64,000 nt of DNA from Gammaproteobacteria bacterium MOLA455 (GTDB lineage: Bacteria; Pseudomonadota; Gammaproteobacteria; Pseudomonadales; Porticoccaceae), in contig AZIN01000001.1 in the NCBI GenBank assembly GCA_000511875.1, positions 434,001 through 498,000 on the forward strand, written 5' to 3'. A program made the translations under genes and the position numbers. Shown piece after piece: positions 710 through 18,265 of the stretch. The notes under the pieces were generated by a model. It was not told the DNA's origin, made no database searches, and worked only from the letters and a program-made list of their open reading frames with translations. How positions within the stretch are numbered: the first letter of the stretch is position 1; each line of letters starts with the position of its first letter.

Positions 710-1804
710 TTAAAAACAGCTGATCAATGTCTCAATTTGCTCCTGACTATTACAGCTGTGAGGCGACAGTCGAATACCCTTGGCCCGCGTATCAAAATGC
801 ACCAGAGAGGCCTTTAGGCGACTGATAATCTGTTGTTGATGTTGGCCAAAATTGACAATTAAAGTGCCACCCCGCTGGCACTCTGGCCTCGGTGAAATTA
901 ATGCCGCAGCCGGTATGGTCTGAATAATTTTGTCGCTCAGGGCAATATTGTTTTGTCGAATTTTATCCACACCCAAAGCATTAATCTGCACCAGGCTACT
1001 GGCTGCCACCGCGTAGGGATAGACCGACGGTGTGCCACCCCAAAATCGCAGGGCGTCTGGAGCATAGCGAAAATGATGGATATCAAACTCAAAGGGATTT
1101 TCATGGGAGAACCAGCCTACATTGTCTGGCTGGCACTGCTCTAGAATCTCTGGATCGACCCAGAGAAACGCCGCTCCTGGGCCACCTCCGATCCACTTAA
1201 CCGATGAACCGACGACAAAATCCGCCTGCCAATGTTGCAGATCAATAGGAATAATGCCCGCTGACTGGGCCACATCCACCAGAGACAAAGCACCTTTCTG
1301 GCGCGCCAGTTCAGTGATCTGCTGCACCGGCAACTGCCGTCCATTATTCGACTGCACATGAGTCACCAAAACCATGCCCACATCAGCTGTCATCTGTCGA
1401 TCCCACTGGGCCAGATCCGAGGTATCTGTATCTGTGGCAATAAATTTTAATTGATAACCCAGACTGGCGGTTTTTTGCAAGGCAAAGGCAATCGACGGGA
1501 AATCCTCTTCGCTCAATAAAATAACCGGCCGCTGGGGACGGACTGGCAGTGAAAAAACAATCTTTGACACGGCGCTAGAGAGGCTACTCTGGGGACAGAT
1601 ATTAGCCATCTCGGTATTCATCAGCATGGCCAGTTGCTCTCGAAAGCTGCTGATCGCACCCAACCAGTGATTCCATATGTCTGCATCACCACGCTGCCAT
1701 GGCTGCCAAAAGGCACTGGCCGCCGCTTGCTCTGCACCGACCAATGGCAGTCCCACAGAGTGACTGAGCATATAGATTCCCTCATGGGCAATAAACGGGT
1801 TCAT
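710..1804 (-). CDS. Class V aminotransferase family protein, kynureninase-like
   Basis: PLP-dependent fold-type I enzyme of 364 residues, closest in pattern to kynureninase (cleavage of kynurenine to anthranilate and alanine). The start resembles kynureninases (YMLSHSVGLPL). The cofactor site is visible: LVDVAQSAG, with the Asp that contacts the pyridine ring, and SSVKWIGGGPG, with the Schiff-base Lys. It is shorter than typical kynureninases (about 410-420 residues). Its start overlaps the stop of the upstream PrnB-like gene by four bases (ATGA), so the two are translationally coupled. The pairing with a haem-dioxygenase-superfamily gene suggests a tryptophan or related indole/aryl-amine breakdown step. 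The substrate is inferred, not shown; a cysteine desulfurase-like activity is less likely from the motifs. Confidence 0.75.
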   Translation of the reverse strand: MNPFIAHEGIYMLSHSVGLPLVGAEQAAASAFWQPWQRGDADIWNHWLGAISSFREQLAMLMNTEMANICPQSSLSSAVSKIVFSLPVRPQRPVILLSEEDFPSIAFALQKTASLGYQLKFIATDTDTSDLAQWDRQMTADVGMVLVTHVQSNNGRQLPVQQITELARQKGALSLVDVAQSAGIIPIDLQHWQADFVVGSSVKWIGGGPGAAFLWVDPEILEQCQPDNVGWFSHENPFEFDIHHFRYAPDALRFWGGTPSVYPYAVAASSLVQINALGVDKIRQNNIALSDKIIQTIPAAALISPRPECQRGGTLIVNFGQHQQQIISRLKASLVHFDTRAKGIRLSPHSCNSQEQIETLISCF

Positions 1805-2976
1805 AGCAGCAAGCCTTTGAGGTGTTCTATATCCCCATGGCGAGTTTTAAATGCGCCACCAACATCTGCAGCGCAGCGCATATCGCAGAGTTTACGCAGG
1901 CTTTTTAACAGCACGGGCAATGGTGGCCCACTGGCAGTAATTCCCTTGGATTTGGTTAACACCCCTGCATCCGCCGGCCGCTCAATAAACTTATTAACCA
2001 ACTGCTCATGATGCTGCAGTGCAGTCTGGCCATGGGCATGGCAAACCTGTAAAAACAGCTCAAGATTCTTCCGCACCCAGGGCTGATCTCTATCCGCATC
2101 GGCCGTGGCTAAAAAGCTGTCCAGCAAGCTAGTGCGGCGCATACAGTCGCGCAACACCAACTGATCCTCTGGGCGCATAAACAGAAACTTATCCACTAAA
2201 AGCTGAGAGTAATAAGGATCGTCAGCGCGGCACAAACCAAGCAGTAAGTCGATCACATTGATCCCGGCAAAATCTCCTGCATTGGCGCCACGGTATTCAT
2301 GCAGCCCCACACGGTGAGGGCGGTAATAAGGCCTGACGCAGTAAAAGAAACGGTCCACATCGAGCTTTTCAAATAGCTCTTGGTTGTAAGCATAAACCTC
2401 TTCCAGTGACTGTTTCGCACTGAGTAAAAGATCGTAGGTTACCGGGTGGGAAACACCCAGAGGCAGAATCTGGCGCAATGCTTCCGAGGCACGAATAAAG
2501 GCAAAGACACTGCGAGTGTTGTAATCGAGAAACAGTTTTTCGTCGTCGAGGTCAGTAAAGGTTTTATAGACACCGCTAATAGCTCGATTGTGGGTTTCCA
2601 GGTGACTGGAGGCAAACCGCGGAATCACGCCCAGAGAGGCGCCCAACTGCAGAGCCAGTGCCGAAGCTTCCTGTAATGGCGAACGGGTTTCTCTGGAGGG
2701 TTCGGTGATTTCGTGGCGGCGGCAGGCGGCCATGTAAAAACCCACATTGCCGAGCAGATCAAAACCACTGTCGAAGCCTTCGTCGGTATTGCCTTCATCA
2801 AGTAGATCACGGATTAAGGCCCTGCCCTCTTCCACTAAACGCTGCGTCAACGTTTCACCCAAGCCCGGATCAGGCAGATGATCGGGCTGGCAAAAATACA
2901 ACTGTTCAAGACCCGTATTGATCTCCCTAAAATCGCTGCGGATCCATGCATCAAGGGCTTTAGCTTTCTCGGTCAT
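1801..2976 (-). CDS. PrnB-like protein of the tryptophan/indoleamine dioxygenase superfamily (DUF1864)
   Basis: Mostly helical protein of 391 residues resembling the PrnB family, whose founding member is monodechloroaminopyrrolnitrin synthase, a haem enzyme related to indoleamine and tryptophan 2,3-dioxygenases. Recognisable features are the long helical N-terminal half and the block VRPYYRPHRVGLHEYRG continuing into ANAGDFAGINVIDLLLG. The His in GLHEYRG is conserved in appearance, but I cannot tell which His binds haem. I chose the ATG at 2974-2976 over an upstream TTG at 3030, because an AGG-type ribosome site sits in front of it and the upstream 18 residues look non-coding. No other pyrrolnitrin genes (PrnA, C, D) are present, so a pyrrolnitrin role is unlikely. 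Together with the kynureninase-like gene and divergent Lrp regulator, an amino-acid (tryptophan-like) oxidation role is inferred. Confidence 0.72.
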   Translation of the reverse strand: MTEKAKALDAWIRSDFREINTGLEQLYFCQPDHLPDPGLGETLTQRLVEEGRALIRDLLDEGNTDEGFDSGFDLLGNVGFYMAACRRHEITEPSRETRSPLQEASALALQLGASLGVIPRFASSHLETHNRAISGVYKTFTDLDDEKLFLDYNTRSVFAFIRASEALRQILPLGVSHPVTYDLLLSAKQSLEEVYAYNQELFEKLDVDRFFYCVRPYYRPHRVGLHEYRGANAGDFAGINVIDLLLGLCRADDPYYSQLLVDKFLFMRPEDQLVLRDCMRRTSLLDSFLATADADRDQPWVRKNLELFLQVCHAHGQTALQHHEQLVNKFIERPADAGVLTKSKGITASGPPLPVLLKSLRKLCDMRCAADVGGAFKTRHGDIEHLKGLLL

Positions 2977-3129
2977 GTTATGTTTTGCCTGTCTGTTTGA
3001 GCATCTATTTGAAGATTCTAATAATGGCAAATAGTAACAAAAGACCTTTAACGCTTTCGGCCAAATACCGCCGCCATACCCACAGAAAATGTATAATCAG
3101 ACTCTTTTATAACTTCTATTGAGTTGATT

Positions 3130-4771: not shown

Positions 4772-6082
4772 TTATATTGTTAGCCGCAACGTACCTAAAA
4801 CATGGTCCTGCAATTTGGCCGGAACAGCTATGTCAGTAGCAATCGCTTTCCACTTCGAAAATGCCTCAACAGTACGCTGAATAACCTGTTTTTCACTGCC
4901 CCGAGGCAGTCCCGCATATTGCGCCAGATGTTTTAAATCGCTGCGCTCAAAATCATTGGTTTTACCATTGATACTAAGTTGATGATTGCGAGTGAACTGA
5001 CTTCCCTCTGCGTGACAGAGATCATAGGCCGGCGACAGATCCCAGTTGCCCTGTCGATCCATCATAAAGGCGAAATTTTTAACATGATCGTCTTGGTTGC
5101 AACCGACAATATTAAATACCACGCGGCGAAACTGCTCTTCGAAGGCGCGCTTGGGGAGATTCAAGCGTTTCATCAGCATAAACAGCTGCTCGTAGGAGTG
5201 ATAGCCGCTTTCATAATAGTCGTAGTGAGCCAGCGCGCCAAAGGTCTGCATAAATTGCTTGCCGCCATCGGCATCGCGATCAAAGCGTCGGGTCATAAAA
5301 TGGTTGCGGCCGTTCTCTGAGAAGATACTGCTCTCCATCATTTGGATACCGCAGTCTTTCGCGATCAGATGATAGCTATATTCCAACAGGCCATAGCCTG
5401 AAGGGTCGGCCACGCCCCAATCACCGCTGAACTCTACGCCATCGAATTTGATTAACCAGTGCTCAAAGCCTGAGGGCAACTGCAGCTGCCCAGAGCGCAC
5501 TTGCTTAGTCTCTGGGTTAAAGGCAATAACCGCCTTGGCTCGCGCGCCACCGGCAGAGGTGCCGACTTTTACTATATCGAGCAGCGCATCCCTGCCCTCG
5601 CCTTTACTGAAACCGACTTCAGAGAATTTAGCTTGCAGGGATTCTTTGCTGGCAAAGGCCAGTGAGGCGAGTTCAGTCAGATCGTCTATTGCCAACAACT
5701 TATCTTCGTTTTTGTCTGGCCCTGCAGCGGGTTCAAATTCCAATGCGCCCATTCCGCGGGTGCCGGTATAACAGAGGCGGTCCACCGCATTAAAGTCGGC
5801 GGGCTGACGGCCAGTTTGGGCCAGCCACACATCGATCAGTCGCTGACCATATTTGTCTGGCAAGCTGTCAGCAATCAACCCTGGCATACCGTGAAATGAA
5901 CGCGGATGGAGATCGGGAAATTGATAGATGTGCCGACCCTGCACTGGCATCATCAATGGCGCTGGTTCAATGCCAAAAGCCGCAAAATCTGGAGCATACT
6001 CGAAGCGGGCAAAGCGCTCACCACTGCCCATGGCAACGTAGCCAATAGTGGTGCCCCAGAGTTTTACGGTCGCGGTCGTCAT
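4772..6082 (-). CDS. hipA: HipA-type serine/threonine kinase toxin
   Basis: Full-length HipA-family kinase of 436 residues, the toxin partner of a type II toxin-antitoxin system. E. coli HipA phosphorylates glutamyl-tRNA synthetase; the target here is unknown. Visible motifs are the HipA N domain (VKLWGTTIGYV to FEYAPDF), the P-loop-like segment GTSAGGARAKAV near residue 175, the catalytic loop NQDDHVKNFAF near residue 330, and the metal-binding LSPAYDL near residue 350. The catalytic Asp, His and Asn positions are kept, so the kinase should be active. The start overlaps the stop of the upstream antitoxin gene by four bases, the usual hipBA coupling. Confidence 0.92.
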   Translation of the reverse strand: MTTATVKLWGTTIGYVAMGSGERFARFEYAPDFAAFGIEPAPLMMPVQGRHIYQFPDLHPRSFHGMPGLIADSLPDKYGQRLIDVWLAQTGRQPADFNAVDRLCYTGTRGMGALEFEPAAGPDKNEDKLLAIDDLTELASLAFASKESLQAKFSEVGFSKGEGRDALLDIVKVGTSAGGARAKAVIAFNPETKQVRSGQLQLPSGFEHWLIKFDGVEFSGDWGVADPSGYGLLEYSYHLIAKDCGIQMMESSIFSENGRNHFMTRRFDRDADGGKQFMQTFGALAHYDYYESGYHSYEQLFMLMKRLNLPKRAFEEQFRRVVFNIVGCNQDDHVKNFAFMMDRQGNWDLSPAYDLCHAEGSQFTRNHQLSINGKTNDFERSDLKHLAQYAGLPRGSEKQVIQRTVEAFSKWKAIATDIAVPAKLQDHVLGTLRLTI

Positions 6083-6426
6083 TCCCTCTCATCACCCCAG
6101 CGAACACCAGGCTCTGCGACTCGGCCTTTTTTGCGCTGCTTTGCCGCGGAGAGCACTTCAGCCATAGGTGAAGCGAAACGTTCAGGTAACAGGGCATCAA
6201 TCGCCGCAGTCATACGCAGCGCTTTGAGCAGCTTGATCCATGAAACCATTTGACCATCCTGACCAGACTCGATGCGCCGCAGTGTTGCAACACCAAGACC
6301 TGCCTCTTCGGCCAAGCGAGTCTGGGAGAAGCCCTGCTGCTTGCGCACTCGCGCCAGCCTCTTGCCCATCTCGATGAGGGTGGCGCCCTCTGGGGTTAAG
6401 TAATCAATTTTCATACTATTGACCAT
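6079..6426 (-). CDS. hipB: HipB-type XRE antitoxin
   Basis: Small DNA-binding antitoxin of 115 residues. The HTH runs from about residue 20 to 75 (MGKRLARVRKQQGFSQTRLAEEAG, recognition helix near GVATLRRIESG). The basic tail KQRKKGRVAEPG is longer than in E. coli HipB and could thread into the toxin; that is inference. The start is uncertain: ATG at 6426 or an in-frame ATG four codons later, neither with a good ribosome site. Translationally coupled to hipA. Probably autorepressed through the palindromes listed just upstream. Confidence 0.9.
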   Translation of the reverse strand: MVNSMKIDYLTPEGATLIEMGKRLARVRKQQGFSQTRLAEEAGLGVATLRRIESGQDGQMVSWIKLLKALRMTAAIDALLPERFASPMAEVLSAAKQRKKGRVAEPGVRWGDERE

Positions 6427-7096: not shown

Positions 7097-8539
7097 TTAG
7101 ATATTGCCAGCCAAAAATTTTGACGAGTTTGCCCCGGATGGGGTTCGACTGTCTGACCTTGAATCAGACTCGGAACGCTGCATTTGTTTATCCCGCAACG
7201 ATAATCGACGGCGAATAATGTTCATCCTCGCTTCAGTCAAGGGCATTTTCGCAATAAACACCATCGCCAACAACACAAAGAAAGTCGGGGCCCAGGAAAC
7301 GCTCAGGCGTAAGCCAATCAGGCTCCACTCCGTCTGCTCAAGCGCCTGTACGTCAAAACCAAACCAGCCGACCACGGCGAAACCCAGCGCGCCACCAACG
7401 GCAAGCTGTATCTTCATCATCAGCGCCTGAATAGAAAAATACAGCGCATTGTGCTCCGCCCCATCTTTCAGTCGGCCATAATCAATCACATCGCACAGCA
7501 TCGGGTAGGAAATAACCCCCATGCTCGCAATCGAAAAGGTCATCAGCAGGTTTAGTGCAAACAACTCAAACAACCCCGAGTCACCCGGTCTCAACACAGC
7601 GGTGTACAGAAACACCCCGGTCAGTAACAACATACCAACCAGCCAGGCTTTGCGCTTGCCCCAATACAGCGACAGCCGATACCAAACCGGTATCGCCAGT
7701 GCACCACAAACCATGCCCCACAGGGACAAGTTAGCAAAGGCTTTGCCCAGTTGCAGATAACTGTCCACATAGATAAAAAATAGCCCTGCCCACATGCCAT
7801 AGCCAATACCCAAGCACATAAAGGCGCCGATATAGAGTAAAAAGGGTTTGTTATTGATCAGGGCAGACAGGATATCGGCAAGCCGCTGACTCTGTTGATC
7901 AACGCTCACTAACGGACTGTGTGCCGGACCAGACGGCACGACTTTCACCGCCACCAAAAGCCCAATGAGCAATAACACCGCCCCAGCGATAACGGTCACC
8001 TTTAATACCTCTGGGGTAATGTCGGTCGTTAAAAAAAATGGCAGGAGCGGAATTAAATAGAACAGCCCTGTTCCGCCTTGTGAGGTCATCGCCATCAAGC
8101 TAAACACCAGGGTTTTGTCTTTGGCGGTTTCGGTAAACTCATTGGCCCAAGCTGTGTTGGGAATCATAAAAACCGTCATCGCCAAATAAAAGGCCATATA
8201 CCAAAACGTAAAATAGCCGGTGCTCACGTTTTCCGGTGGCACAAACAAAAAATAACAGCACGGAATCATCAACAAGCCACCCATGAGAATAAAAGGCTTG
8301 CGGGTACCTGTGCGGGCACGCCAGCGGTCAGAGTAATAACCGATCAACGGATCCGTCACCGCATCGAAGATACGCGCCACTAACATGACCGTTGCAATGG
8401 TGGTGAGTGATACGCCGAAGTACTTGCCGTAGATACCCCCAAGCACGGTAATCACAGGTGCAAACAGCAGCGACAAACCTAACTGAGGTGCGACATAGGC
8501 CAGTGCTTTAAGCCAAATACCCTGCTGTGATTGGCTCAT
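7097..8539 (-). CDS. GPH-type MFS cation symporter (MFS_2)
   Basis: Inner-membrane transporter of 480 residues with about twelve hydrophobic segments. The glycoside-pentoside-hexuronide:cation symporter signature is clear: ARIFDAVTDPLIGYYSDR in the loop after TM2, and later YPMLCDVIDYGRLKDG in the second half. The tail after residue 445 is hydrophilic and Ser-rich. GPH proteins usually move sugars with Na+ or H+, but in TonB-receptor/S9-peptidase loci the cargo is often unknown. It lies about 40 bases downstream of the first S9 gene and is very likely in the same transcript. Confidence 0.88.
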   Translation of the reverse strand: MSQSQQGIWLKALAYVAPQLGLSLLFAPVITVLGGIYGKYFGVSLTTIATVMLVARIFDAVTDPLIGYYSDRWRARTGTRKPFILMGGLLMIPCCYFLFVPPENVSTGYFTFWYMAFYLAMTVFMIPNTAWANEFTETAKDKTLVFSLMAMTSQGGTGLFYLIPLLPFFLTTDITPEVLKVTVIAGAVLLLIGLLVAVKVVPSGPAHSPLVSVDQQSQRLADILSALINNKPFLLYIGAFMCLGIGYGMWAGLFFIYVDSYLQLGKAFANLSLWGMVCGALAIPVWYRLSLYWGKRKAWLVGMLLLTGVFLYTAVLRPGDSGLFELFALNLLMTFSIASMGVISYPMLCDVIDYGRLKDGAEHNALYFSIQALMMKIQLAVGGALGFAVVGWFGFDVQALEQTEWSLIGLRLSVSWAPTFFVLLAMVFIAKMPLTEARMNIIRRRLSLRDKQMQRSESDSRSDSRTPSGANSSKFLAGNI

Positions 8540-8579: not shown

Positions 8580-10889
8580 TTAATCAAAAGAGGTAGTCAG
8601 CTTAAAATCTTCGGGAGGTTCCAACCCTAATAGATGCTCCACCAAATAATCCCACGCACGTTTCACCGTATAGCCATAAGCAGGATTAGGCAGTAACAGT
8701 AAATCAAAATCCTTATTGGCGGTTTGCAAAGCATCAATAATACGCAGTGTTCCTTCAGCAGGCGCTAAGGGATCAATCATGCTGTTCATTAATAATAATT
8801 TGCCTTGTAAGTTGCTTATTTGCTGTTCTGGATAGGGATGGTCAGCGGTGGAGCCAGATAATCCTTCATACCGCTCTCCCCATAACCCTGCCGGGAAATA
8901 CCGACTATCGTAGGTCATCGAAGCCACACCGGCTTTGTAAAATCCGTCCTCTCGGCACAGGCTGCTAACAACCCCCACTCCGCCAGAGCTGTGGCTTGTA
9001 ATGCCAACGCGGTTTAAATCCATATAGGTATAGCGTTTGGCCAACTGTTGAATGCCTGCGATATGATCATCAATCTTACTGGCTGATTCACTCCAGCCAT
9101 AACAGTTATCTAAAAACGCCTTGTGCCTAAAGGGTGTGCCTCGGCCATCAATTTGCACCACAATAAACCCGAGTTCTGCCAGTGCGGCAGCATCAAGATA
9201 AGGCATTCCATAAACCGCGCCATTGGTGAACGAGCCCTTAGATACCCAAGTTAAATCCGGTGAGTTATAAACATGGGAAATCACCGGATAAGACTGGTCC
9301 GTTGAAAAGGTGGAGGGACGAAACACCAAACCGTAAAGATCGGTTTTGCCATCAGCCGCGAGTAATTTAACCGGTTCTGGCCATTGCCAGTTCTTTGGTA
9401 AGCCCGAAATATCCGCCGTTTCAAGTTCAAGTACTGTCTTTCCGTCGCGATTAAGCAACAGGCTCACAGGCACCTCATCGGCTCGCGAGCGCGTGACAAC
9501 CGCAAAGTCACCACTGGGAGAAACACCGCAGGCAATGCCCCGATCATCGCGGCCAGATCCTTTTGCCATCATGGTATTTTGGTGCAGCTGTGTTACCGCA
9601 CAGTATTCATGGTTGCCAGCAATGACGGTGCTTACTTCACCGTTATCCAGATCAATACGGCACAGATCACGATAATAGGGATCCCAATCCGCGACACGGC
9701 CTGCTGTGTGCACAAACACTTCTCGTCGTTTGCTATCGACTTTTATCACATCGCGAACCAGCCAATTACCTTGTGTCACCGGGTGTTTTAGCTGGCCGGT
9801 TTCCAGATCATAAAGGTAGAGATGCGCCCAACCACTGCGTTCTGAGAACCACAATAATTCTCCGCTCTCGGGCAGTGGCATCAAGGTGGGTGGTTCATCA
9901 CTGTTGAGCATCAAGCCGATGAACGTGTCTGAATGCTCTTCAAACAGTATTTTCGTTGCACCGGTGTGAGTATCAAATTCCACAACGCGAGCTGTTTTGT
10001 AATCGCGCTCCACATCGACAAAATAGGCGCGCCGATTATCCGTTGACCACCAGCCTAGGTTGGAATCAAAAAAGGCGAACACACTACGTGTCACGGGAAT
10101 ATTCCGATAGTTCGCTTCTTGTGGTCGCCCTGTTTCAATATCAATCGCTAGCAAGCGGAAGGTTTCTACATTGGCATCACCCGGCAGGGAGACAGCTTTT
10201 TCTTCTAGCTGTGGGCGAATACTACCGTCCTGTGGCACATGATGAACCACGGGGAACAGTTTAACTTGCCGTGCGTCTCGTTGAACAGCGAATAGGCGTG
10301 TTGAGTCCGGTGACCAACGAACTTGTACATTGGTGTAATCAATGGGGGCAAAACAGCACACACCAACGCCGTATTGATAATCCTTTTCACCATCAATGGT
10401 TAAGGCACGCTCGGTATGGTCGTCTAAATCTCGCAGCCATAAATTGAAATCGCGGATAAAAACACCCTGTTTACCGTTGGGAGAAACCATGCAGTCCTGA
10501 TGCACAGTAGCAAGGTCTGTCATGTCAGCGGGCGTGCAGGTTCCAGTCTCAGCATAATAGATCCAATGTTTATCGAATGCGGTAAAGCGAATGATGCTGG
10601 GGTTGAGGTCGATATCAACACGGCGGAGGGGGAGATTGTTCACATCAACTGTTTGTCCTATGGCTTCTGACAAGGCTGTTGCTAATGCGCTGTGATCAAA
10701 GGCGCTGTTATTGGTCGCGGTCTTGGCGTCTACCAGACGGTATTCCTTGCCGTCTTTCGTCTCTCGTTCATACCAGAAACAGTGTGTGTCACCGATCCAG
10801 ACTGGAAATACCGTGGTATTGAAAGCAACGTTTTTGGTGAAGATACCCTGCATTAACTGTTGGGCGCGTTCATAATCTTGTGTAAGCAT
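8580..10889 (-). CDS. S9 (DPP IV-like) peptidase family protein lacking the catalytic His
   Basis: Cytoplasmic protein of 769 residues without a signal peptide. The N-terminal two-thirds is a DPP IV-type beta-propeller (repeats such as RWSPDSTRLF, SERSGWAHLYLYDLETG, DPYYRDLCRIDLDNGEV). The C-terminal third is the alpha/beta-hydrolase domain. The nucleophile elbow GITSHSSGG places Ser at residue 634, and the acid is probably Asp in NSMIDPLAP. Where family members have His (LPNxxH), this protein reads LPNPAYGY, with Tyr738 in the His position (codon TAT; His would be CAT). The triad therefore appears incomplete, and weak or absent peptidase activity is inferred. It is about 70 bases downstream of a paralogue that is degraded further. 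Confidence 0.85.
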   Translation of the reverse strand: MLTQDYERAQQLMQGIFTKNVAFNTTVFPVWIGDTHCFWYERETKDGKEYRLVDAKTATNNSAFDHSALATALSEAIGQTVDVNNLPLRRVDIDLNPSIIRFTAFDKHWIYYAETGTCTPADMTDLATVHQDCMVSPNGKQGVFIRDFNLWLRDLDDHTERALTIDGEKDYQYGVGVCCFAPIDYTNVQVRWSPDSTRLFAVQRDARQVKLFPVVHHVPQDGSIRPQLEEKAVSLPGDANVETFRLLAIDIETGRPQEANYRNIPVTRSVFAFFDSNLGWWSTDNRRAYFVDVERDYKTARVVEFDTHTGATKILFEEHSDTFIGLMLNSDEPPTLMPLPESGELLWFSERSGWAHLYLYDLETGQLKHPVTQGNWLVRDVIKVDSKRREVFVHTAGRVADWDPYYRDLCRIDLDNGEVSTVIAGNHEYCAVTQLHQNTMMAKGSGRDDRGIACGVSPSGDFAVVTRSRADEVPVSLLLNRDGKTVLELETADISGLPKNWQWPEPVKLLAADGKTDLYGLVFRPSTFSTDQSYPVISHVYNSPDLTWVSKGSFTNGAVYGMPYLDAAALAELGFIVVQIDGRGTPFRHKAFLDNCYGWSESASKIDDHIAGIQQLAKRYTYMDLNRVGITSHSSGGVGVVSSLCREDGFYKAGVASMTYDSRYFPAGLWGERYEGLSGSTADHPYPEQQISNLQGKLLLMNSMIDPLAPAEGTLRIIDALQTANKDFDLLLLPNPAYGYTVKRAWDYLVEHLLGLEPPEDFKLTTSFD

Positions 10890-10960
10890 GTTTGGTTCCG
10901 TCTATATAAAATGGGGGGGCTATTGATTTCGTGCATTACTAGTTTTCTCTTGTTACGGAA

Positions 10961-13357
10961 TCATATAGATGCATCGTTAAGGCTGAATTCCTTAGGCGGC
11001 GTAATTTCCAGCAAATGTTTAACCAAAAAATCCCAACCACGGCGGGTCATGTAACTGCTGCAAAATGAGTCCGAAGGCGAGCCGGGAACCATCAGCATCT
11101 CAAAGGCTTTATTGGCCTTTTGCAAGGCCTCAACCACTCGAAAGACAGCCGTTGATGGGTAACCCGCAGACATCTCAGATGTTATTGCATGCATCAGTAT
11201 CAGTTTGCCCTTTAATTGACTCACCAACTCCTCAGGATAACGATGCGTATTGCTATCGGGGCCGTTAATGCCTTCCCATTTATCCCCTTCGACTGTGCAG
11301 CCAATCAGACGATTATCCAGTAGGGCCATCTGCGCACAGACTTTATAAAGATCCTGACGTTCGAGAAAGTTTTGTAGCCCACAGCGGTAGCCTTGACCGC
11401 AGATACCAACGCGGTTGATATCCATATATGGATAACGTTGTGTCAATTGCTGAATGGCACCCGCATGATCATCGGTGTTGGCAGCGGCGGGGATCCAGCC
11501 ATAGCTTTCATCCAGAAAGGCCTTACTTCTCAGTGGTGAACCGCGGCTGTCGAGGTTAAGCACAATAAAACCCAGTTCGGCCATGGCGGCACTGTAAAAA
11601 TAATGCCGATCAGCATAGCCTCTGGAGGTGTGAAAACTGCCCTTGGGCACAGCCGATAACCAGGTGCCGCTGTTGATAAAGTTAATTACCGGATAGCTTT
11701 TGTCGGGTGAGAAATCCGATGGCCGAAATAGCAACCCGTAAATATCGGTTTTGCCGTCGGCGGCCAGCAATTTGACCGGTTCTGGCCATTGCCAGTTATC
11801 CGGCAACGCTGAGAGATCGGCCGATTCTACTTCAAGGATAGTTTGTCCCTGATAATTGATCAGCAGATTAGTTGGTGCTTGATCGGCGCGGGTTTGAGTA
11901 ACGACTATATACTGGCCATCTGGTGATAGCCCACTGGCCTCTCGAGTCATCACACCTAGCATGCTAGCGGTTATAGATGTGATACTTTCTGGATAATTCA
12001 CCAGATATTCATGGTCGCTTGACAGTACAGTGATGATTTCGCCAGTATCAATATTCACTCGGCAGATATCGCGGTAATAGGGGTCGCGCTCCGTTGCCCG
12101 GCCCGCGGTCTGGAGATACAGCGTGCGGTTTTTTGCATCGACGCGCAACAGATCCCGAACCCGCCAGTTGCCCTGAGTGATCGCGTGTTTGAGTGCACCC
12201 GTAGTGAGGTCATACAGATAGAGGTGTGCCCAGCCGCTCCGCTCTGAACACCAGATCAGTTCATTGCTGTCGACCAGAATCTGGTGAAGTGGCAAGTTCA
12301 TGGTATCTGGCATAATATCGATCTGGGTTTCCGAGGTTTCTTCAAACAAAACCTGGGTTGATCCGGTGTACGTATCAAACTTCACCAGTCGTAGCACCTT
12401 GTCGCCACGCTCTTGAGCAATAAAATAGGCGTATTGGTTGCCTTTTGCCCAAAACGACAACTTTGATTTGGCGTAGCCCCAGTACTCATTGCGACCAGCG
12501 GGTAAGGGGTGATAGTCAGCGTAGCAAGCCTGACTGGTATCGACATTGATGTTCAATATTTGATACGTCTCTATTGCCGTATCACCTGAGTAGGCCACTT
12601 TACTCTGTGTTAATTGCGGGCGAGCACTGCCATCCATCGGCAGATGTGTCACTTGAGGTAGAGAGTGCACTTGCCGTTTATCCCGCTTAACGGTCAATAA
12701 GCAGCGTGAATCCGGCGACCACAGTGCGGGGTGACCATGAAGTCCTGACGAGTCTGCGCCCCAGCCGCCGCCCTTCACCGCATAGGCAAAGTCCTCTTCT
12801 CCATCCAGGGTTAACGCTCGCTCTGTGCCGGTAGCAGCAACGCGTACCCATAAATTGTAATCGCGAACAAAGGCGATTTGCCGACCATCGGGAGAAAGCA
12901 CTTCGCTATCGTTGATCAATGTTGATTGCAGTAATTGGCAGATGCCTTCTTCTGCCAAAAACTGCCAACGTTGATCAAAAGCCGTAAAGCTGACGATCAC
13001 TGGAGTCAAGGTGATGGTGACATGGCTGATAGGCAGGTCTTGCGCGTTGACTTCCTGATTGGATGCTTTTGCCAGCGCATGGCTCAATAGCTCGTGATCA
13101 AAGGCGAGGGTATTGGTGCGTTTTTTTGCATCCACCAAGCGGTATTCCTTGCCCGAACGGTTGTCGACTCGAGTACCGCGTTCATACCAGAAACAATAGG
13201 TGCTGGTGTTACTGGCATCAATGATCCAGTGTGGATAAATGGTTTCATTTTGGACCAGGCTTTTTGTACCAAAGCCTTGGATCAATGCTTCGGCTCGGCG
13301 ATAGCGTTCTTCCATGGCTTGGCTATCTGGGGGTTGGGCGGCGCCTACATGAGTCAT
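10961..13357 (-). CDS. S9 (DPP IV-like) peptidase family pseudoenzyme
   Basis: Paralogue of the neighbouring S9 protein, 798 residues, cytoplasmic, with the same propeller-plus-hydrolase layout and long matching blocks (EPVKLLAADGKTD, SERSGWAHLYLYDL, GNWRVRDLLRVDAK). The nucleophile elbow reads GICGQGYRCG: Gly656 (GGC) stands where Ser (AGC) is expected. The acid region reads HAITSEMSAG rather than HG-x-DDN, and the His region reads VPGSPSDSF with no His. All three triad positions seem lost, yet the 798-codon frame is open and keeps the fold-defining sequence. It starts at an ATG with AGGGAA upstream. A binding, regulatory or scaffold role is inferred. Confidence 0.85.
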   Translation of the reverse strand: MTHVGAAQPPDSQAMEERYRRAEALIQGFGTKSLVQNETIYPHWIIDASNTSTYCFWYERGTRVDNRSGKEYRLVDAKKRTNTLAFDHELLSHALAKASNQEVNAQDLPISHVTITLTPVIVSFTAFDQRWQFLAEEGICQLLQSTLINDSEVLSPDGRQIAFVRDYNLWVRVAATGTERALTLDGEEDFAYAVKGGGWGADSSGLHGHPALWSPDSRCLLTVKRDKRQVHSLPQVTHLPMDGSARPQLTQSKVAYSGDTAIETYQILNINVDTSQACYADYHPLPAGRNEYWGYAKSKLSFWAKGNQYAYFIAQERGDKVLRLVKFDTYTGSTQVLFEETSETQIDIMPDTMNLPLHQILVDSNELIWCSERSGWAHLYLYDLTTGALKHAITQGNWRVRDLLRVDAKNRTLYLQTAGRATERDPYYRDICRVNIDTGEIITVLSSDHEYLVNYPESITSITASMLGVMTREASGLSPDGQYIVVTQTRADQAPTNLLINYQGQTILEVESADLSALPDNWQWPEPVKLLAADGKTDIYGLLFRPSDFSPDKSYPVINFINSGTWLSAVPKGSFHTSRGYADRHYFYSAAMAELGFIVLNLDSRGSPLRSKAFLDESYGWIPAAANTDDHAGAIQQLTQRYPYMDINRVGICGQGYRCGLQNFLERQDLYKVCAQMALLDNRLIGCTVEGDKWEGINGPDSNTHRYPEELVSQLKGKLILMHAITSEMSAGYPSTAVFRVVEALQKANKAFEMLMVPGSPSDSFCSSYMTRRGWDFLVKHLLEITPPKEFSLNDASI

Positions 13358-13626: not shown

Positions 13627-16197
13627 TTAAAAGTCATAAGACAATCTAATGCCCAGTGTGCGAGGTCTGTGTTGTGCGGTCTGCTTGGAGAGAGACACGC
13701 CGACAAGCTTATCTTCATCCAGTAAGTTTTGCCCAAACAGTTCAACTGAAAGTGATTGCCACTGAGCACTTAGCTGTGCATCAAGAAAACCAAAGGGTTC
13801 ATTTGGATGTTCCTCAACGGCAAGTGATTGTCCTCGATCAATGACAGCACTTTGGCCTTCTCGATTGTAGCTCAGACGAAAATCACCCGCGACGGCGCTT
13901 GACCAGTTGAAGCTATAATGGCTGTTCACTGAATAACCGTATTCTGGAACAAAGGGTACGAGATCACCTTTGATATTGGAGGGTGCTGGTGCCGTGCTGG
14001 TAATATTGGTGAATTCAGCGTCAGTGACTGCACCGTTAAAACCGATGGACAGTTGATCGGTCACGGCCCAGTCAAACTCCCATTCAAGCCCTTTTATGAC
14101 CGCTTCTCCAACATTCCCAGTAATGCCAACGGTTACGTCATTAGGGAGTGCGGTAGTCGTTATATAATCGTCGTAGTGGCTATAAAAGAGTGCGAAATTA
14201 ACGTTTAAGCGATTATCTAATAGCGCAGATTTTGTGCCCAGTTCATAGGCCAATATTTGCTCGGGATCGTAATTAGGTTGTCCCTGTTGATTGAAGCCAC
14301 CGCTACGAAAGCCTTGGGATACATTGAAATAGGTATTGAGATTATCCGTCCACGCATAACTCAAATAGACTCTAGAACTCAGCTTATCAAATGAGGCTTC
14401 CTTTAAAATGCCTGCTTCTGGACCCGTAAATACTAGCTGTGTTTGATCATCTTCAAAGTAGCGAGTACCTAATCCAGCCGTCAATTGCGAGGTTATGGCG
14501 TAAGAAGCATCAGCGTAGTAGGCGATGGATTTTGTGGTATTAACAATCTCGTATCCTCCTGCTCTTAGATCAATGGGCACCCCTTGTGGAAACAGAGCCC
14601 AGAAAGCATCATAACTAAGCCGCGTTTCTGCGTCATTGTAGAATACGCCTAAAGTCCAATCAAAAAGATTGTTTTTACCAGAGCCTTCATTAGACGTTAA
14701 GCGAATATCTTGTGTAAACGACTTGACGTTGTTGAGCAGAGTCGTAGTGACAGCTTCCACTGGACCGAAAGTGAAATCAATAAGCTGGGAATCGTCACCT
14801 ATAGTCTCTTGTTCATGTTTCGAGCTGCTGCTAATAAGTGTGGCGAAATCAAAATCATAAGCAATGGTTAGGTTATAGAGATCATAATCACTGGTTCCTG
14901 GCGGAACGGCTTGATCTGGGAAAACCCCTCGCCGAAAGTTGCTTTCCTTAAGAGGTGTCGTATTTACCACGCTATATGCACCATAATTGTTGCGATGCCG
15001 AATAGCATTGCCCTTAATGGCTAACTCATCTGTCGCTTGCCACAGACCTTTAATACGAATATTGGACAATTCGCTATCATTAATATCTTTGACACCTGCT
15101 GCTGGCTGGTCTATCCAACCGGGTTTGTCCTTGTAGGTTGCAGAGACGCGGAAAGCTAAGGTATCGTCAATCACTGGAATATTAACAAAGCCGGTTAATT
15201 CCTCGCTCCAGCCGCCTCTATGCGTGTCGTAGCCAGACAATGTCATCCGCCCTTCCACGTCGTCAAAGGAAGGGTCATTGGTAATATAGCGTATGGTGCC
15301 GCCCATCGAACCCTGACCATAAAGTGTGCCCTGCGGTCCTTTTAAAACCTCCACTTGTTGTAAATCAACCACTTGTAAATCCAGTGAATATAATGGGCCT
15401 GAAGAAAGTGGGATTTCATCCAAATAGATGCCGATAGTGGGTGTATTTCCGCGAAGATTGCCGACCCCCCTAATAGTAACGATTTGATACCCAGGTCCGA
15501 TCTCCACTGTTGATAAATTGGGCACGGCATAACTCAAGTCAGCTATATTTTGAATGCTTGCTACGTCTAGATCTTCACCCGATATTGCAGTAATACTGAT
15601 CGGGACATCAATGAGGCGCTGCTCGCGTTTTTGTGCCGTAACCACAACCTCCTCCAACAACCAGTCCATCCCCTCCGCACTTTGCGCCTTTTCAGCCGAG
15701 GTGTGCGACACCCCCCCAGCCCCCATAAAAAACCCAACCGTCGCCGCCAAAATCTTCTTCTTACTATTCATCTCATTCCCCTGATTATTTTGAGTAATAA
15801 TCAGATGACCGTCGGCGCTGAACCTGGCGTACAACCCTGAGCCTTTTAGGAGAATTCGAATACCCTCTTTGCGGGTATACTCCCCATACAAGCGATTGGT
15901 GATATGTTGATTGGCCTCCTCAAAGGCATACATCACCGTCATGTCCGCTTGCTGCCCAAACGCTGGCAACGAATCATCTGCTGATTGCCGGGGAATATCG
16001 AACTGCACCAATGATCTTGTTTGTGGTGCGGCCATCAAAAAACTTGCTTGACCCAGTAAAACCCATAGCACGCTTACACACTTTATTATCGCTATCACGT
16101 CGGTCTTACTAACAATATTGCCTCGACCAACAGCACACAAAAACCTATGTTGTTTTGTATTATTGTGTGCTGTTAGTAGAGAACACGGGTATGGCAT
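13627..16197 (-). CDS. TonB-dependent receptor with N-terminal STN signalling domain and an internal second signal peptide
   Basis: Outer-membrane transporter and signal transducer of about 856 residues. The order is: N-terminal signal (CVSVLWVLLGQASFLMA), STN domain (FDIPRQSADDSLPAFGQQ through GLYARFSADGHLIITQ), plug (EEVVVTAQKREQRLIDVPIS; VEVLKGPQGTLYGQGSMGG), and a 22-strand barrel ending in LSYDF with terminal Phe. Start options are ATG 16197 or GTG 16098; the latter gives a cleaner signal peptide. Between STN and plug, starting at Met 15771, there is a second complete signal-peptide-like segment (MNSKKKILAATVGFFMGAGG), preceded by a strong in-frame Shine-Dalgarno, AGGGGAATGAG. STN domains contact FecR, encoded immediately upstream together with an ECF sigma factor. 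The imported ligand is unknown. Confidence 0.88.
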   Translation of the reverse strand: MPYPCSLLTAHNNTKQHRFLCAVGRGNIVSKTDVIAIIKCVSVLWVLLGQASFLMAAPQTRSLVQFDIPRQSADDSLPAFGQQADMTVMYAFEEANQHITNRLYGEYTRKEGIRILLKGSGLYARFSADGHLIITQNNQGNEMNSKKKILAATVGFFMGAGGVSHTSAEKAQSAEGMDWLLEEVVVTAQKREQRLIDVPISITAISGEDLDVASIQNIADLSYAVPNLSTVEIGPGYQIVTIRGVGNLRGNTPTIGIYLDEIPLSSGPLYSLDLQVVDLQQVEVLKGPQGTLYGQGSMGGTIRYITNDPSFDDVEGRMTLSGYDTHRGGWSEELTGFVNIPVIDDTLAFRVSATYKDKPGWIDQPAAGVKDINDSELSNIRIKGLWQATDELAIKGNAIRHRNNYGAYSVVNTTPLKESNFRRGVFPDQAVPPGTSDYDLYNLTIAYDFDFATLISSSSKHEQETIGDDSQLIDFTFGPVEAVTTTLLNNVKSFTQDIRLTSNEGSGKNNLFDWTLGVFYNDAETRLSYDAFWALFPQGVPIDLRAGGYEIVNTTKSIAYYADASYAITSQLTAGLGTRYFEDDQTQLVFTGPEAGILKEASFDKLSSRVYLSYAWTDNLNTYFNVSQGFRSGGFNQQGQPNYDPEQILAYELGTKSALLDNRLNVNFALFYSHYDDYITTTALPNDVTVGITGNVGEAVIKGLEWEFDWAVTDQLSIGFNGAVTDAEFTNITSTAPAPSNIKGDLVPFVPEYGYSVNSHYSFNWSSAVAGDFRLSYNREGQSAVIDRGQSLAVEEHPNEPFGFLDAQLSAQWQSLSVELFGQNLLDEDKLVGVSLSKQTAQHRPRTLGIRLSYDF
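15769..15784 (-). promoter_or_regulatory. Internal ribosome-binding site and ATG inside the TBDT gene
   Basis: On the minus strand AGGGGAATGAG precedes ATG at 15769-15771, with spacing suited to initiation. The Met opens a signal peptide in the same frame as the receptor. Initiation here would give a receptor without the STN domain. The bases are seen; use in the cell is inferred. Confidence 0.55.
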
Positions 16198-16228
16198 GCA
16201 AAAACCCTTAGTCGGTTTAAAAAGTTTT

Positions 16229-17323
16229 TTATTTTGAAGAAAGTTGGATGACATCATCATCCAGGTAGGCAACATGAATACCAAAACTTTGGCTCATTGA
16301 GCGCAGCAAGCTGTCGATATCATCGGTTTTGTAATAGCCACCCACTTTTGTATTTTTGATGTCAGCATCAACAATGCGTATGTCTTTATCGGTGTAGCGC
16401 CGAACCTCAACCACGACTTGTTCTAAGGTTTCACCTTTGAAGATAAGCGCGCCCTGCTGCCAGGCGAGTTTCTTTTCCAGTTGCTCCCGTTGCATTTCGC
16501 CTTTTTGGGCGATCACCTGACTGTATTGCAGTGCCTCACCCGCTTTCACAAAGGCTTCATTTTGTTGAACGGGTGTTGGCGTGTTTTCAGCGCTGAGAGA
16601 ATCTGTCACTAAGGTCTGCAATGGCTCACTGGGCGCTATGCCTGAATAGACCTTCACCCGCCCTTCCGTCACCGTCAGGTCAACGCTGTCTTCGATCAGG
16701 CGTATATTAAAGGCGGTACCCACCGCCCACACCAAGCCATCACCGGCGTAGACCACAAAGGGTCGGTGCGGATCTTTTGCCACGTCAAAATTCACTTCGC
16801 CGCGGCTTAGGTGAATAATGCGGTTATCGCCGCTGTAGTCCACCGACAACTCACTGTTGGTATTGAGGGTGAGCACCGTGCCATCGTCGAGCCGCTCTAG
16901 GCGCTGCTCACCAATGGCGGTCTGCAAGGACTGGGTTTCTGAATCAAACGCGGATAAGCCATACAGCAGCACGGCAAAGGTACAGGCCACTAGGGAGGCT
17001 GTGGCGGCATAGCCCGCGAACGATAATTTGTTGATCCAGAGGCCCAGCCCATGATGATGCTGTGAGGCTGTGGCGGCGCGGGGGACGGCAAACAGTTCGG
17101 CCAGCTCTTGCAAGACGGCCATATCATCCCAGCTTTGGCTGAGCTGGATAAAGTAGTCGCGGTGAAAGTCGCTGCGGCCTATCCATTCTCGCAGGTCATC
17201 CACATCATCCGCTGACAAGGCATTGTCACTGATGCGAATCAACCAGACGGCGGCCTGTTCTTTTACCGGCGCTCGATGCTCTACCACCTGAGGATCATCA
17301 ATGGCATTAGTATTTCTAGTCAT
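16229..17323 (-). CDS. fecR: FecR-family anti-sigma/signal relay protein
   Basis: Inner-membrane regulator of 364 residues. An N-terminal cytoplasmic DUF4880-type segment (EQAAVWLIRISDNALSADD) binds the sigma factor. One membrane helix follows near residues 105-125 (AATASLVACTFAVLLYG). The periplasmic FecR domain (GEQRLERLDDGTVLTLNTNS; GRVKVY) comes next, and a C-terminal STN-like segment (LIFKGETLEQVVVEVRRYT) meets the receptor's signalling domain. It overlaps the sigma gene by eight bases and ends about 30 bases before the receptor start. The arrangement is the standard FecI-FecR-FecA-like cascade, but no siderophore or citrate genes are nearby. Confidence 0.92.
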   Translation of the reverse strand: MTRNTNAIDDPQVVEHRAPVKEQAAVWLIRISDNALSADDVDDLREWIGRSDFHRDYFIQLSQSWDDMAVLQELAELFAVPRAATASQHHHGLGLWINKLSFAGYAATASLVACTFAVLLYGLSAFDSETQSLQTAIGEQRLERLDDGTVLTLNTNSELSVDYSGDNRIIHLSRGEVNFDVAKDPHRPFVVYAGDGLVWAVGTAFNIRLIEDSVDLTVTEGRVKVYSGIAPSEPLQTLVTDSLSAENTPTPVQQNEAFVKAGEALQYSQVIAQKGEMQREQLEKKLAWQQGALIFKGETLEQVVVEVRRYTDKDIRIVDADIKNTKVGGYYKTDDIDSLLRSMSQSFGIHVAYLDDDVIQLSSK

Positions 17324-17924
17324 TACAATGCTCGCTTGCGCTAACCTTACTCTTGTTCTGCGCTAAATTTGTGTTCACTAGTGGGTGTTCGGCCGTCTGC
17401 TCGGCCATGTAATCAGCGCACCTAACCATGGCTTTGGCCTGATGCGCTTCAACGGTTTTAACGGTAATGCCTAAATAGTCAGCCGTCTCTTTTTGGGTAT
17501 AGCCATAGACACGACGCAATATATAAACCCGCTGACCCTGAGTTGGCAGTCGTCGAACAGCGCGACAAAACACATCAAAGCGCTGTCGTGATTCGAATTG
17601 CTGCTCCATAGTCGGGGTTTGTAGCAGGTCCAGTTCGGGTAATAACTCGCCAACAGTATCGGTCAGCCGATGATGGCTGGACCTCAGCTCACTAATAGCA
17701 AGGTTGCGTGCGGTTTTATACAGGTAGGAACGGGGCTCACGAACTCCCCGGCGATGCTGGGCCTCAATAACTTTTACAAAGGCTTCTTGCACTACATCCT
17801 CAACTTCCTGCGGACGCCGAAAATAGCGAGAGGCAAACCGCATCAATGAAGCTCGCAGATCCTTGTATATTGCCCCCATGTCAGGCTCAGAGTCATCGGG
17901 CACGATGCGTTTCTGTTTTGGCAC
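17316..17924 (-). CDS. ECF RNA polymerase sigma factor, FecI-like
   Basis: Sigma factor of about 202 residues with region 2 (SLMRFASRYFRRPQEVEDVVQEAF) and region 4 (LPTQGQRVYILRRVYGYTQKETADYLGITVKTVEAH). I chose GTG at 17922-17924 because AGGAGG lies seven bases upstream (17932-17937). The longer TTG start at 17960 has no such site, and an ATG at 17879 lacks one as well and trims the N-terminus. First gene of the signalling island; FecR overlaps its 3' end. It presumably activates the receptor promoter and perhaps its own. The C-terminal tail after residue 175 is hydrophilic. Confidence 0.9.
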   Translation of the reverse strand: MPKQKRIVPDDSEPDMGAIYKDLRASLMRFASRYFRRPQEVEDVVQEAFVKVIEAQHRRGVREPRSYLYKTARNLAISELRSSHHRLTDTVGELLPELDLLQTPTMEQQFESRQRFDVFCRAVRRLPTQGQRVYILRRVYGYTQKETADYLGITVKTVEAHQAKAMVRCADYMAEQTAEHPLVNTNLAQNKSKVSASEHCND

Positions 17925-18265
17925 TCTACCGCCTCCTCTGCGCAAGTGGGTGTATATCAATACTTGAGTTACCTTTATGACCAGCGAGCACGATCTGCCA
18001 CCTCAGCTATAAATCCCTTTTTTACTGCCCCGTCACCTTTCACACGCTGTAGGTTCTGAAAACCCTTAGTGAAAAAGAAAAAAACATTGAAATAAGCTGC
18101 TTAATCACGCGCCTATATAATGAGTCTAGGTCGATATATGAGAACAAGCCTGAAAATATGGCAGGTTTAACAGAGTACCTTGCGTGCAACCCAGAGCTGC
18201 CCACAATCACTCGAGCATGGTAAAATGGCCGCCGTTCAACCAAATCTATCTACCGACAACACTTT
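17925..18265. other. Intergenic region between the ECF sigma gene and dusA
   Basis: About 340 bases between two divergent genes. A perfect TATAAT at 18116-18121 faces dusA, but no good -35 element lies 16-18 bases before it. No gene, tRNA or strong hairpin was recognised. Confidence 0.4.

Follow-up and report, generated by a model that had tools for sequence, protein, structure and literature searches.

What use does a bacterium have for two adjacent peptidase genes whose products appear unable to cut? The question arises in the window, by which we mean the whole stretch of 64,000 nucleotides analysed from Gammaproteobacteria bacterium MOLA455 (contig AZIN01000001.1, positions 434,001 to 498,000). 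This SAR92-clade genome (2.6 Mb in four contigs, G000 below) belongs to the same genus as the genomes G019 and G016, and its two S9/DPP IV-like genes, W1 and W2, lie on the minus strand after FecI, FecR and TonB receptor genes and before an MFS_2 gene, as follows:

17316..17960, minus strand: FecI-like ECF sigma factor (family-model match)
16229..17323, minus strand: FecR-like anti-sigma regulator (family-model match)
13627..16284, minus strand: TonB-dependent receptor; residues 76-176 are weakly FecA-like (43.6 bits, far under the FecA model cut-off)
10961..13357, minus strand: W2, S9/DPP IV-like protein of 798 aa, lacking all three triad residues (ORF, Pfam and predicted model)
8580..10889, minus strand: W1, S9/DPP IV-like protein of 769 aa, triad state Ser-Asp-Tyr (ORF, Pfam and predicted model)
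7097..8539, minus strand: MFS_2 (GPH-like) transporter, 40 bases downstream of W1 (153.6 bits with the GPH subfamily model, whose cut-off of 231 is not reached)

Elsewhere in the window, a gene for a PrnB-like protein (PF08933, 607.9 bits) adjoins a class V aminotransferase gene at 710-3030, giving this SAR92 genome an enzyme gene of the pyrrolnitrin type, and a HipA toxin-like gene occupies 4772-6426, preceded by a small ORF that by eye resembles a helix-turn-helix partner.

The original prediction described both proteins as long open frames with a DPP IV-like layout. As a description of the proteins this is right, although what it took them to mean holds only in part: the open frames, strand and coordinates are exact, and both the DPPIV_N propeller and the Peptidase_S9 domain that mark the S9/DPP IV-like fold score above the Pfam cut-offs (140.8 and 72.4 bits in W1, 131 and 32.3 bits in W2). 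AlphaFold2 models of the two proteins (mean pLDDT 90.2 for W1 and 89.7 for W2, pTM 0.91 each) find their best PDB matches in prolyl tripeptidyl aminopeptidase and bacterial DPP IV. The Ser-Asp-His triad of an S9 enzyme is nonetheless broken in both, W1 lacking the His and W2 all three residues:

8988..8990, minus strand: W1 Ser634 (AGC), nucleophile elbow position; Thr in the orthologue G016a/L052
8772..8774, minus strand: W1 Asp706, acid position; Asp is kept in 20 of the 27 clade proteins described below
8676..8678, minus strand: W1 Tyr738 (TAT), His position; His is kept in 19 of the 27
11390..11392, minus strand: W2 Gly656 (GGC), one of two candidate equivalents of the nucleophile (alignment and predicted model)
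11168..11170, minus strand: W2 Ser730, acid position (read from alignment columns)
11072..11074, minus strand: W2 Ser762, His position (read from alignment columns)

For W1 the predicted combination of Ser634, an Asp and Tyr738 at the His position is confirmed, with Asp706 as the acid; Gly636 is also kept. For W2 the predicted replacement of the acid and His and the loss of the nucleophile stand as well, but the statement that Gly656 is one base away from an AGC serine codon is only one reading, because either of two residues may be the equivalent: the W2 elbow is two residues shorter than that of W1 and carries Gly656-Tyr657, its serine column is a gap in the alignments, and in the predicted model the nucleophile place falls on Gly656 when counted back from the helix start and on Tyr657 when counted on from the strand end. 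Neither candidate place holds Ser, Cys or Thr. Without a triad, both proteins are apparently catalytically dead. DPP IV proper binds the N-terminus of its substrate with a double Glu motif; in W1, W2 and the wider family the place where it is expected shows no conspicuous motif of this kind, the propeller alignment there being loose. Upstream of the assigned starts the frames extend by just 4 codons in W1 (773 aa) and 3 in W2 (801 aa), and inspection by eye finds no hydrophobic N-terminus or signal peptide in either; on these grounds we take W1 and W2 as probably cytosolic, which makes doubtful the proposal that they sense something beside the TonB receptor.

Are these two isolated accidents? 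A tree of 43 proteins, made from an alignment with the active-site columns taken out, places W1 and W2 within one clade of 27 complete proteins (bootstrap 100, SH-aLRT 99), whose sister, the Kordiimonadaceae protein L058, has an intact triad; in a second, quick tree of 35 proteins, the intact L188 joins L058 (support 82). Within the clade, Ser is found in 2 proteins, Asp in 20 and His in 19, and a single protein (G117a) has the complete Ser-Asp-His. Our wider-family control, likewise 43 proteins (35 of the 69 loci L059-L127, together with L058, G033 and six others), has each residue and the whole triad in 43 of 43, so the loss in the clade is more than chance.

The rarity of Ser relative to Asp and His suggests that the nucleophile was lost first, and probably once. 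Under equal weights, the tree requires at fewest 3 changes for Ser, 3 for Asp and 7 for His; the Ser changes can be read as one loss at the base of the clade followed by a regain in W1 and another in G117a, and many separate losses with retention in those two proteins would be costlier. Since the 86% identical orthologue of W1 (G016a/L052) has Thr at position 634, the W1 serine is more likely to have been regained than retained. The tree therefore does not favour the proposal of a stepwise loss in which W1 is the intermediate. The MOLA455 genome itself encodes seven clade proteins, W1 and W2 and five more on its contigs C1, C3 and C4; the serine is absent in these five paralogues, as it is in members from other genomes apart from G117a. 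Duplicate rows for the same proteins (L051, L053 and L056) were excluded from the comparisons. G016b was rejected as a W2 orthologue, being a GspD-S9 chimera, and enters none of the counts of 27: at L052:7693-10092, in SAR92 BACL16, what remains of the W2 orthologue is joined in frame with the N-terminal portion of the type II secretin GspD, by rearrangement or misassembly.

In the genomes sampled, the clade is uncommon and scattered. Specifically, i) a family profile at E <= 1e-60 matches 8 of 50 genomes of the genus, 6 of them with clade proteins, the two others being G033 (triad intact) and G065 (a G033-like gene with an inner stop); ii) at E <= 1e-150, scoring no more than two candidates for each genome, we find matches in 13 of 390 genomes sampled from the order, namely MOLA455, three others of its genus, G117, G364, and seven of the genus f44 g67, in whose proteins the triad is intact; iii) at E <= 1e-230, MOLA455 is the one match among 369 genomes of the class; and iv) at the same threshold, a Parvularculaceae genome is the one match among 299 genomes of its own order. 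The clade hosts are SAR92, two further genomes of the order (G117 and G364) and, with 80 of 579 relatives considered, MAGs of Exilibacterium and Parvularculaceae and a contig binned as Sedimentisphaerales; these latter three bear isolate names of one series, PL25a. G117 carries five complete copies and broken ones within about 55 kb; broken or partial copies lie at 1454495-1456778 (in two frames) and 1469374-1470036 of G117 and on contig C37 of G431. The contig L055 (JANQJS010000044.1), binned as Planctomycetota, holds an NRPS end, a dead S9 gene that groups with the proteobacterial ones and a TonB receptor gene; its binning is doubtful.

The clade genes are under purifying selection. Of eight pairs tried, five gave a dN/dS ratio (0.07-0.31) and three, saturated in dS, gave none. 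W1 and its orthologue (dN 0.072, dS 0.520) yield 0.14, so W1 is not a decaying gene; the trio C4a, C4b and C1b yields 0.22-0.31, and G019_C4b against L054 yields 0.07 at a dS of 2.25, near saturation.

Which parts of the protein are constrained has, by contrast with the wider family, been turned round. We estimated site rates separately for the clade (27 proteins) and the wider family (43 proteins) and compared 12 DPP IV pocket residues with random hydrolase-lobe residues; the 12 residues and their numbering follow the DPP IV literature and were mapped by alignment and motif. In the wider family these residues are slow (mean rate percentile 0.172 vs 0.375 for the lobe, p 0.001), whereas in the clade they are fast (0.725 vs 0.486, p 0.003), and faster still when the triad residues are left out (0.775, p 0.001). 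Sites of the pocket that were once the most conserved thus now rank with the most variable. The shift is uneven: pocket residues 663 and 667 show none, and the Asp and His sites move to mid-range only (0.44 and 0.35). The largest slow-to-fast shifts include sites 541, 543, 545, 632, 634-637, eight within 656-670, and 708-710, and 31 of the top 38 lie in the hydrolase lobe. Of the 38 sites that gained conservation, by contrast, 35 fall outside this lobe, which suggests a new interface or ligand contact there. Among the five close pairs, three show more differences at the 12 residues than in the remainder of the lobe (p 0.001-0.02), all three being drawn from one trio of recent copies; the excess is not significant between W1 and G016a (3 of 12 differ, p 0.13) and is absent between G019_C4b and L054 (3 of 12, p 0.59). 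Broader pocket windows exceed the lobe in 4 of 5 close pairs, but these were set partly post hoc, after the rates had been seen, and the 12-residue set is the only independent definition. Pocket pN/pS is below 1 in all five close pairs, so relaxed constraint in the pocket still fits. The case for one clade of dead S9 proteins with inverted pocket conservation is strong.

We read 20 clade neighbourhoods by clustering or BLAST of their ORFs. A TonB receptor is present in 17 (it is absent from the fetched stretches of G016, G034_C11 and G364), an MFS transporter of the same cluster in 15, and FecI and/or FecR in 14, all of them lower bounds since several stretches end at contig ends. The 69 wider-family loci (41 of about 20 kb) have a receptor in 3, FecR in 2, FecI in 1 and MFS relatives in 0, although many of the hosts presumably belong to phyla without TonB systems. 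Receptor linkage occurs also at the intact L058, L188 and L105, the last with FecI and FecR as well. Near the dead copies lie genes for leucyl aminopeptidase, beta-lactamase-like hydrolases (which we class as S12-type), CocE/NonD, D-aminopeptidase M55, peptidase S58, dipeptide-epimerase-like enzymes, amidohydrolases, an amidase and aldehyde dehydrogenases, and in G117 also an asparaginase and an amino-acid permease; the CocE/NonD and Pfam matches pass their cut-offs, while the NCBIfam models for leucyl aminopeptidase, beta-lactamase, epimerase and DppA score below theirs.

One duplication clearly carried the receptor, S9 and MFS genes together (fractions of residues differing 0.28, 0.18 and 0.21, vs 0.63 for FecI and 0.69 for FecR). 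Judged by their ends, the beta-lactamase-like, leucyl aminopeptidase and BioF-like genes beside the C4 and C1b modules (L016:16210-19901 and L018:17003-19899/L019:1-1150) are very alike, and this likeness is recent copying of a whole module. A mirror-tree coupling of S9 to the receptor (r 0.53) and MFS (r 0.61), significant over ten modules, was rejected: it rests on one duplicate pair and is lost when the recent duplicate C1b is omitted (receptor-S9 r 0.17, p 0.13), so we do not claim coevolution; FecI and FecR give r 0.88 with or without C1b. Other genes lie near the modules: that of a recurring small zinc-ribbon protein (7 proteins at 6 loci, L020:12681-13067, L051, L053, L151, L154 twice, and L155), one of which was scanned and matches the restriction alleviation protein Lar (PF14354, 57.2 bits); the start of what by eye is a Cas9-like protein in SAR92 H231 (L154:1-655); and, in and around the module L152 of G023, a reverse transcriptase gene (PF00078) and, by eye, transposase-like genes.

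The two intact sisters, L188 on the Novosphingobium resinovorum plasmid pHR1a and L058, share with the clade the two-domain layout and an adjoining TonB receptor and differ in their intact Ser-Asp-His. L058 further differs from W1 and W2 in its hydrophobic N-terminus (by eye), and the L188 gene set from that of W1 and W2 in having an MFS_1-type transporter and FecR/sigma genes that stand apart. We dropped the idea that loss of a signal peptide coincided with loss of the serine, as L188, though intact, also has no visible signal peptide. L188 is accompanied by genes for the TonB receptor, a cyclophilin-DUF885 protein, an MFS transporter, aminopeptidase P and leucyl aminopeptidase. Cyclophilin-type prolyl isomerase domains lie beside both sisters (L058:6920-7555; L188:14322-16559, fused to DUF885); the gene after the Kordiimonadaceae S9, by eye a DppA-like peptidase, was rejected as such and matches cyclophilin. 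From these cyclophilin and peptidase neighbours we infer that the ancestral substrate may have been proline-containing peptides. Two single cases link clade members to biosynthetic clusters: at L055 the dead S9 gene comes after the end of an NRPS (carrier and reductase domains) and before the TonB receptor gene, and in G364 it comes after a long modular PKS, the final protein of which terminates in a condensation domain, and lies between genes for an RPE65-type oxygenase and a P450, with ketosynthase genes nearby.

The most economical reading is that the dead, probably cytosolic S9 proteins have taken on a new use in the uptake of peptide-like natural products, binding specific ligands or handing them over, a reading that we prefer but hold tentatively, at a little short of even confidence. 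An ancestral S9 peptidase in a TonB receptor-MFS-S9 uptake set would have lost its serine nucleophile once, after which copies multiplied and the former active-site pocket diversified; the FecI/FecR-controlled receptor and the transporter would import a peptide-like, perhaps proline-containing, natural product, around which the two-lobed S9 shell would close, its tailored pocket holding or presenting the ligand without cutting it; and the chemistry would fall to the neighbouring hydrolases (leucyl aminopeptidase, S12-type, M55, S58, CocE/NonD and amidohydrolases) and the epimerase. To this extent the original proposal survives: both peptidases are intact and apparently inactive, they are tied to a TonB receptor, and a role without catalysis, that of binding, is the likeliest. 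Further points tell against the binding reading: most members retain Asp and His, which goes beyond the needs of a pure binder; copies with an intact triad are linked to receptors too; and the G364 and L055 members, in their biosynthetic clusters, could have a chemical role.

One rival is that the peptidase activity was lost in favour of another natural-product reaction (tailoring, isomerisation, chain release or a lyase step) carried out by other residues. The PKS and NRPS settings and the retained Asp and His would be explained, but inspection of the alignment reveals no substitute group of pocket residues that the clade as a whole conserves, the pocket being among its most variable parts, and most sites that gained conservation fall outside the hydrolase lobe; we consider new chemistry unlikely, though worth keeping in view. 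Those outlying sites could instead form an interface by which the dead proteins, in the manner of DPP6 and DPP10, serve as regulatory or structural partners of each other or of active neighbours. The tandem pairs at W1-W2 and G019_C1 would fit this, as would the several copies within one module at G000_C4 and in the G117 island. Complete copies lie directly side by side at those two places only, however (a broken W2 adjoins W1 in G016); most modules have a single copy, the MOLA455 genome has a single strong S9 match outside the clade (C1:977613, 178 bits), and a partner role leaves the hypervariable pocket unexplained. We therefore regard it as quite unlikely, and an obligate W1-W2 heteromer, as originally envisaged, as an improbable unit.

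That some members (W1 or G117a) still cleave, slowly or with another base, is very unlikely: W1 keeps Ser634, Asp706 and Gly636, but it has no His and its orthologue has Thr at 634, and 25 of 27 proteins have no serine at the nucleophile column, the two that do having probably regained it. G117a, with its complete triad, may be an active member. Least credible of all is that the proteins are relics on the way out whose active sites drift unconstrained; pocket variability by itself fits relaxed constraint, and broken or partial copies do occur in G117 and G431, yet the 27 proteins have full-length frames, W1 is constrained, conservation has increased outside the hydrolase lobe, and one duplication carried the S9 gene along with its transport genes.

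We wish to emphasize that dead enzymes are usually studied as single cases, whereas here an entire radiation can be set against active sisters whose gene sets are similar, which makes the passage from cutting a substrate to holding it directly testable. If the pocket reads the imported molecule, the S9 genes would mark the uptake targets of so far unknown TonB receptors of marine SAR92 bacteria. The fullest version of the binding reading is doubtful as a whole. In it, a DPP IV-type peptidase that lost its nucleophile once became a radiating family of cytosolic binders whose pocket sets specificity and evolves fast; each form would go with a TonB receptor and transporter of its own and with a different peptide-like natural product, and in some bacteria the binder would be built into the PKS/NRPS clusters that produce molecules of this kind.

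How do these proteins compare with known systems? The best fold and sequence matches of W1 and W2 are bacterial DPP IV and prolyl tripeptidyl aminopeptidase (2ecf, 5yp1, 2d5l and 2dcm), most of the fold matches being 20-22% identical; these we take to be active enzymes with a triad, unlike W1 and W2. DPP6 and DPP10, inactive mammalian paralogues of DPP IV that serve as membrane-bound channel partners in animals, resemble W1 and W2 as dead proteins of the same fold (W2 matches the DPP10 structure 4wjl weakly, E 8.3e-5) and differ in having no link to uptake. Among the open-licence PMC articles listed, none describes, in its title or the opening of its abstract, a bacterial clade of dead S9 proteins that lies in TonB gene sets. 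Lasso peptide isopeptidases are another comparison, but W1 and W2 are not such enzymes: they score 19.9 and 22.5 bits with the isopeptidase model NF033523 (cut-off 400), and PF13471, which we take to mark lasso peptide maturation genes, has no match in the MOLA455 genome and matches 2 of 14 control genomes. The isopeptidases AtxE2 and SpI-IsoP combine propeller and hydrolase, are specific for their cognate peptide, which they recognize by shape, and occur with a TonB transporter and a sigma/anti-sigma pair (PMC9266682), as are present near W1 and W2; they differ in their active Ser-His-Glu/Asp triad and in the accompanying lasso precursor and maturation genes. Finally, Zmn22 of the zeamine cluster, a prolyl oligopeptidase-family protein that is a proposed hydrolase of 345 aa (PMC3547906), differs in both those respects from the G364 and L055 members but resembles them as an S9-like protein encoded beside PKS/NRPS genes.
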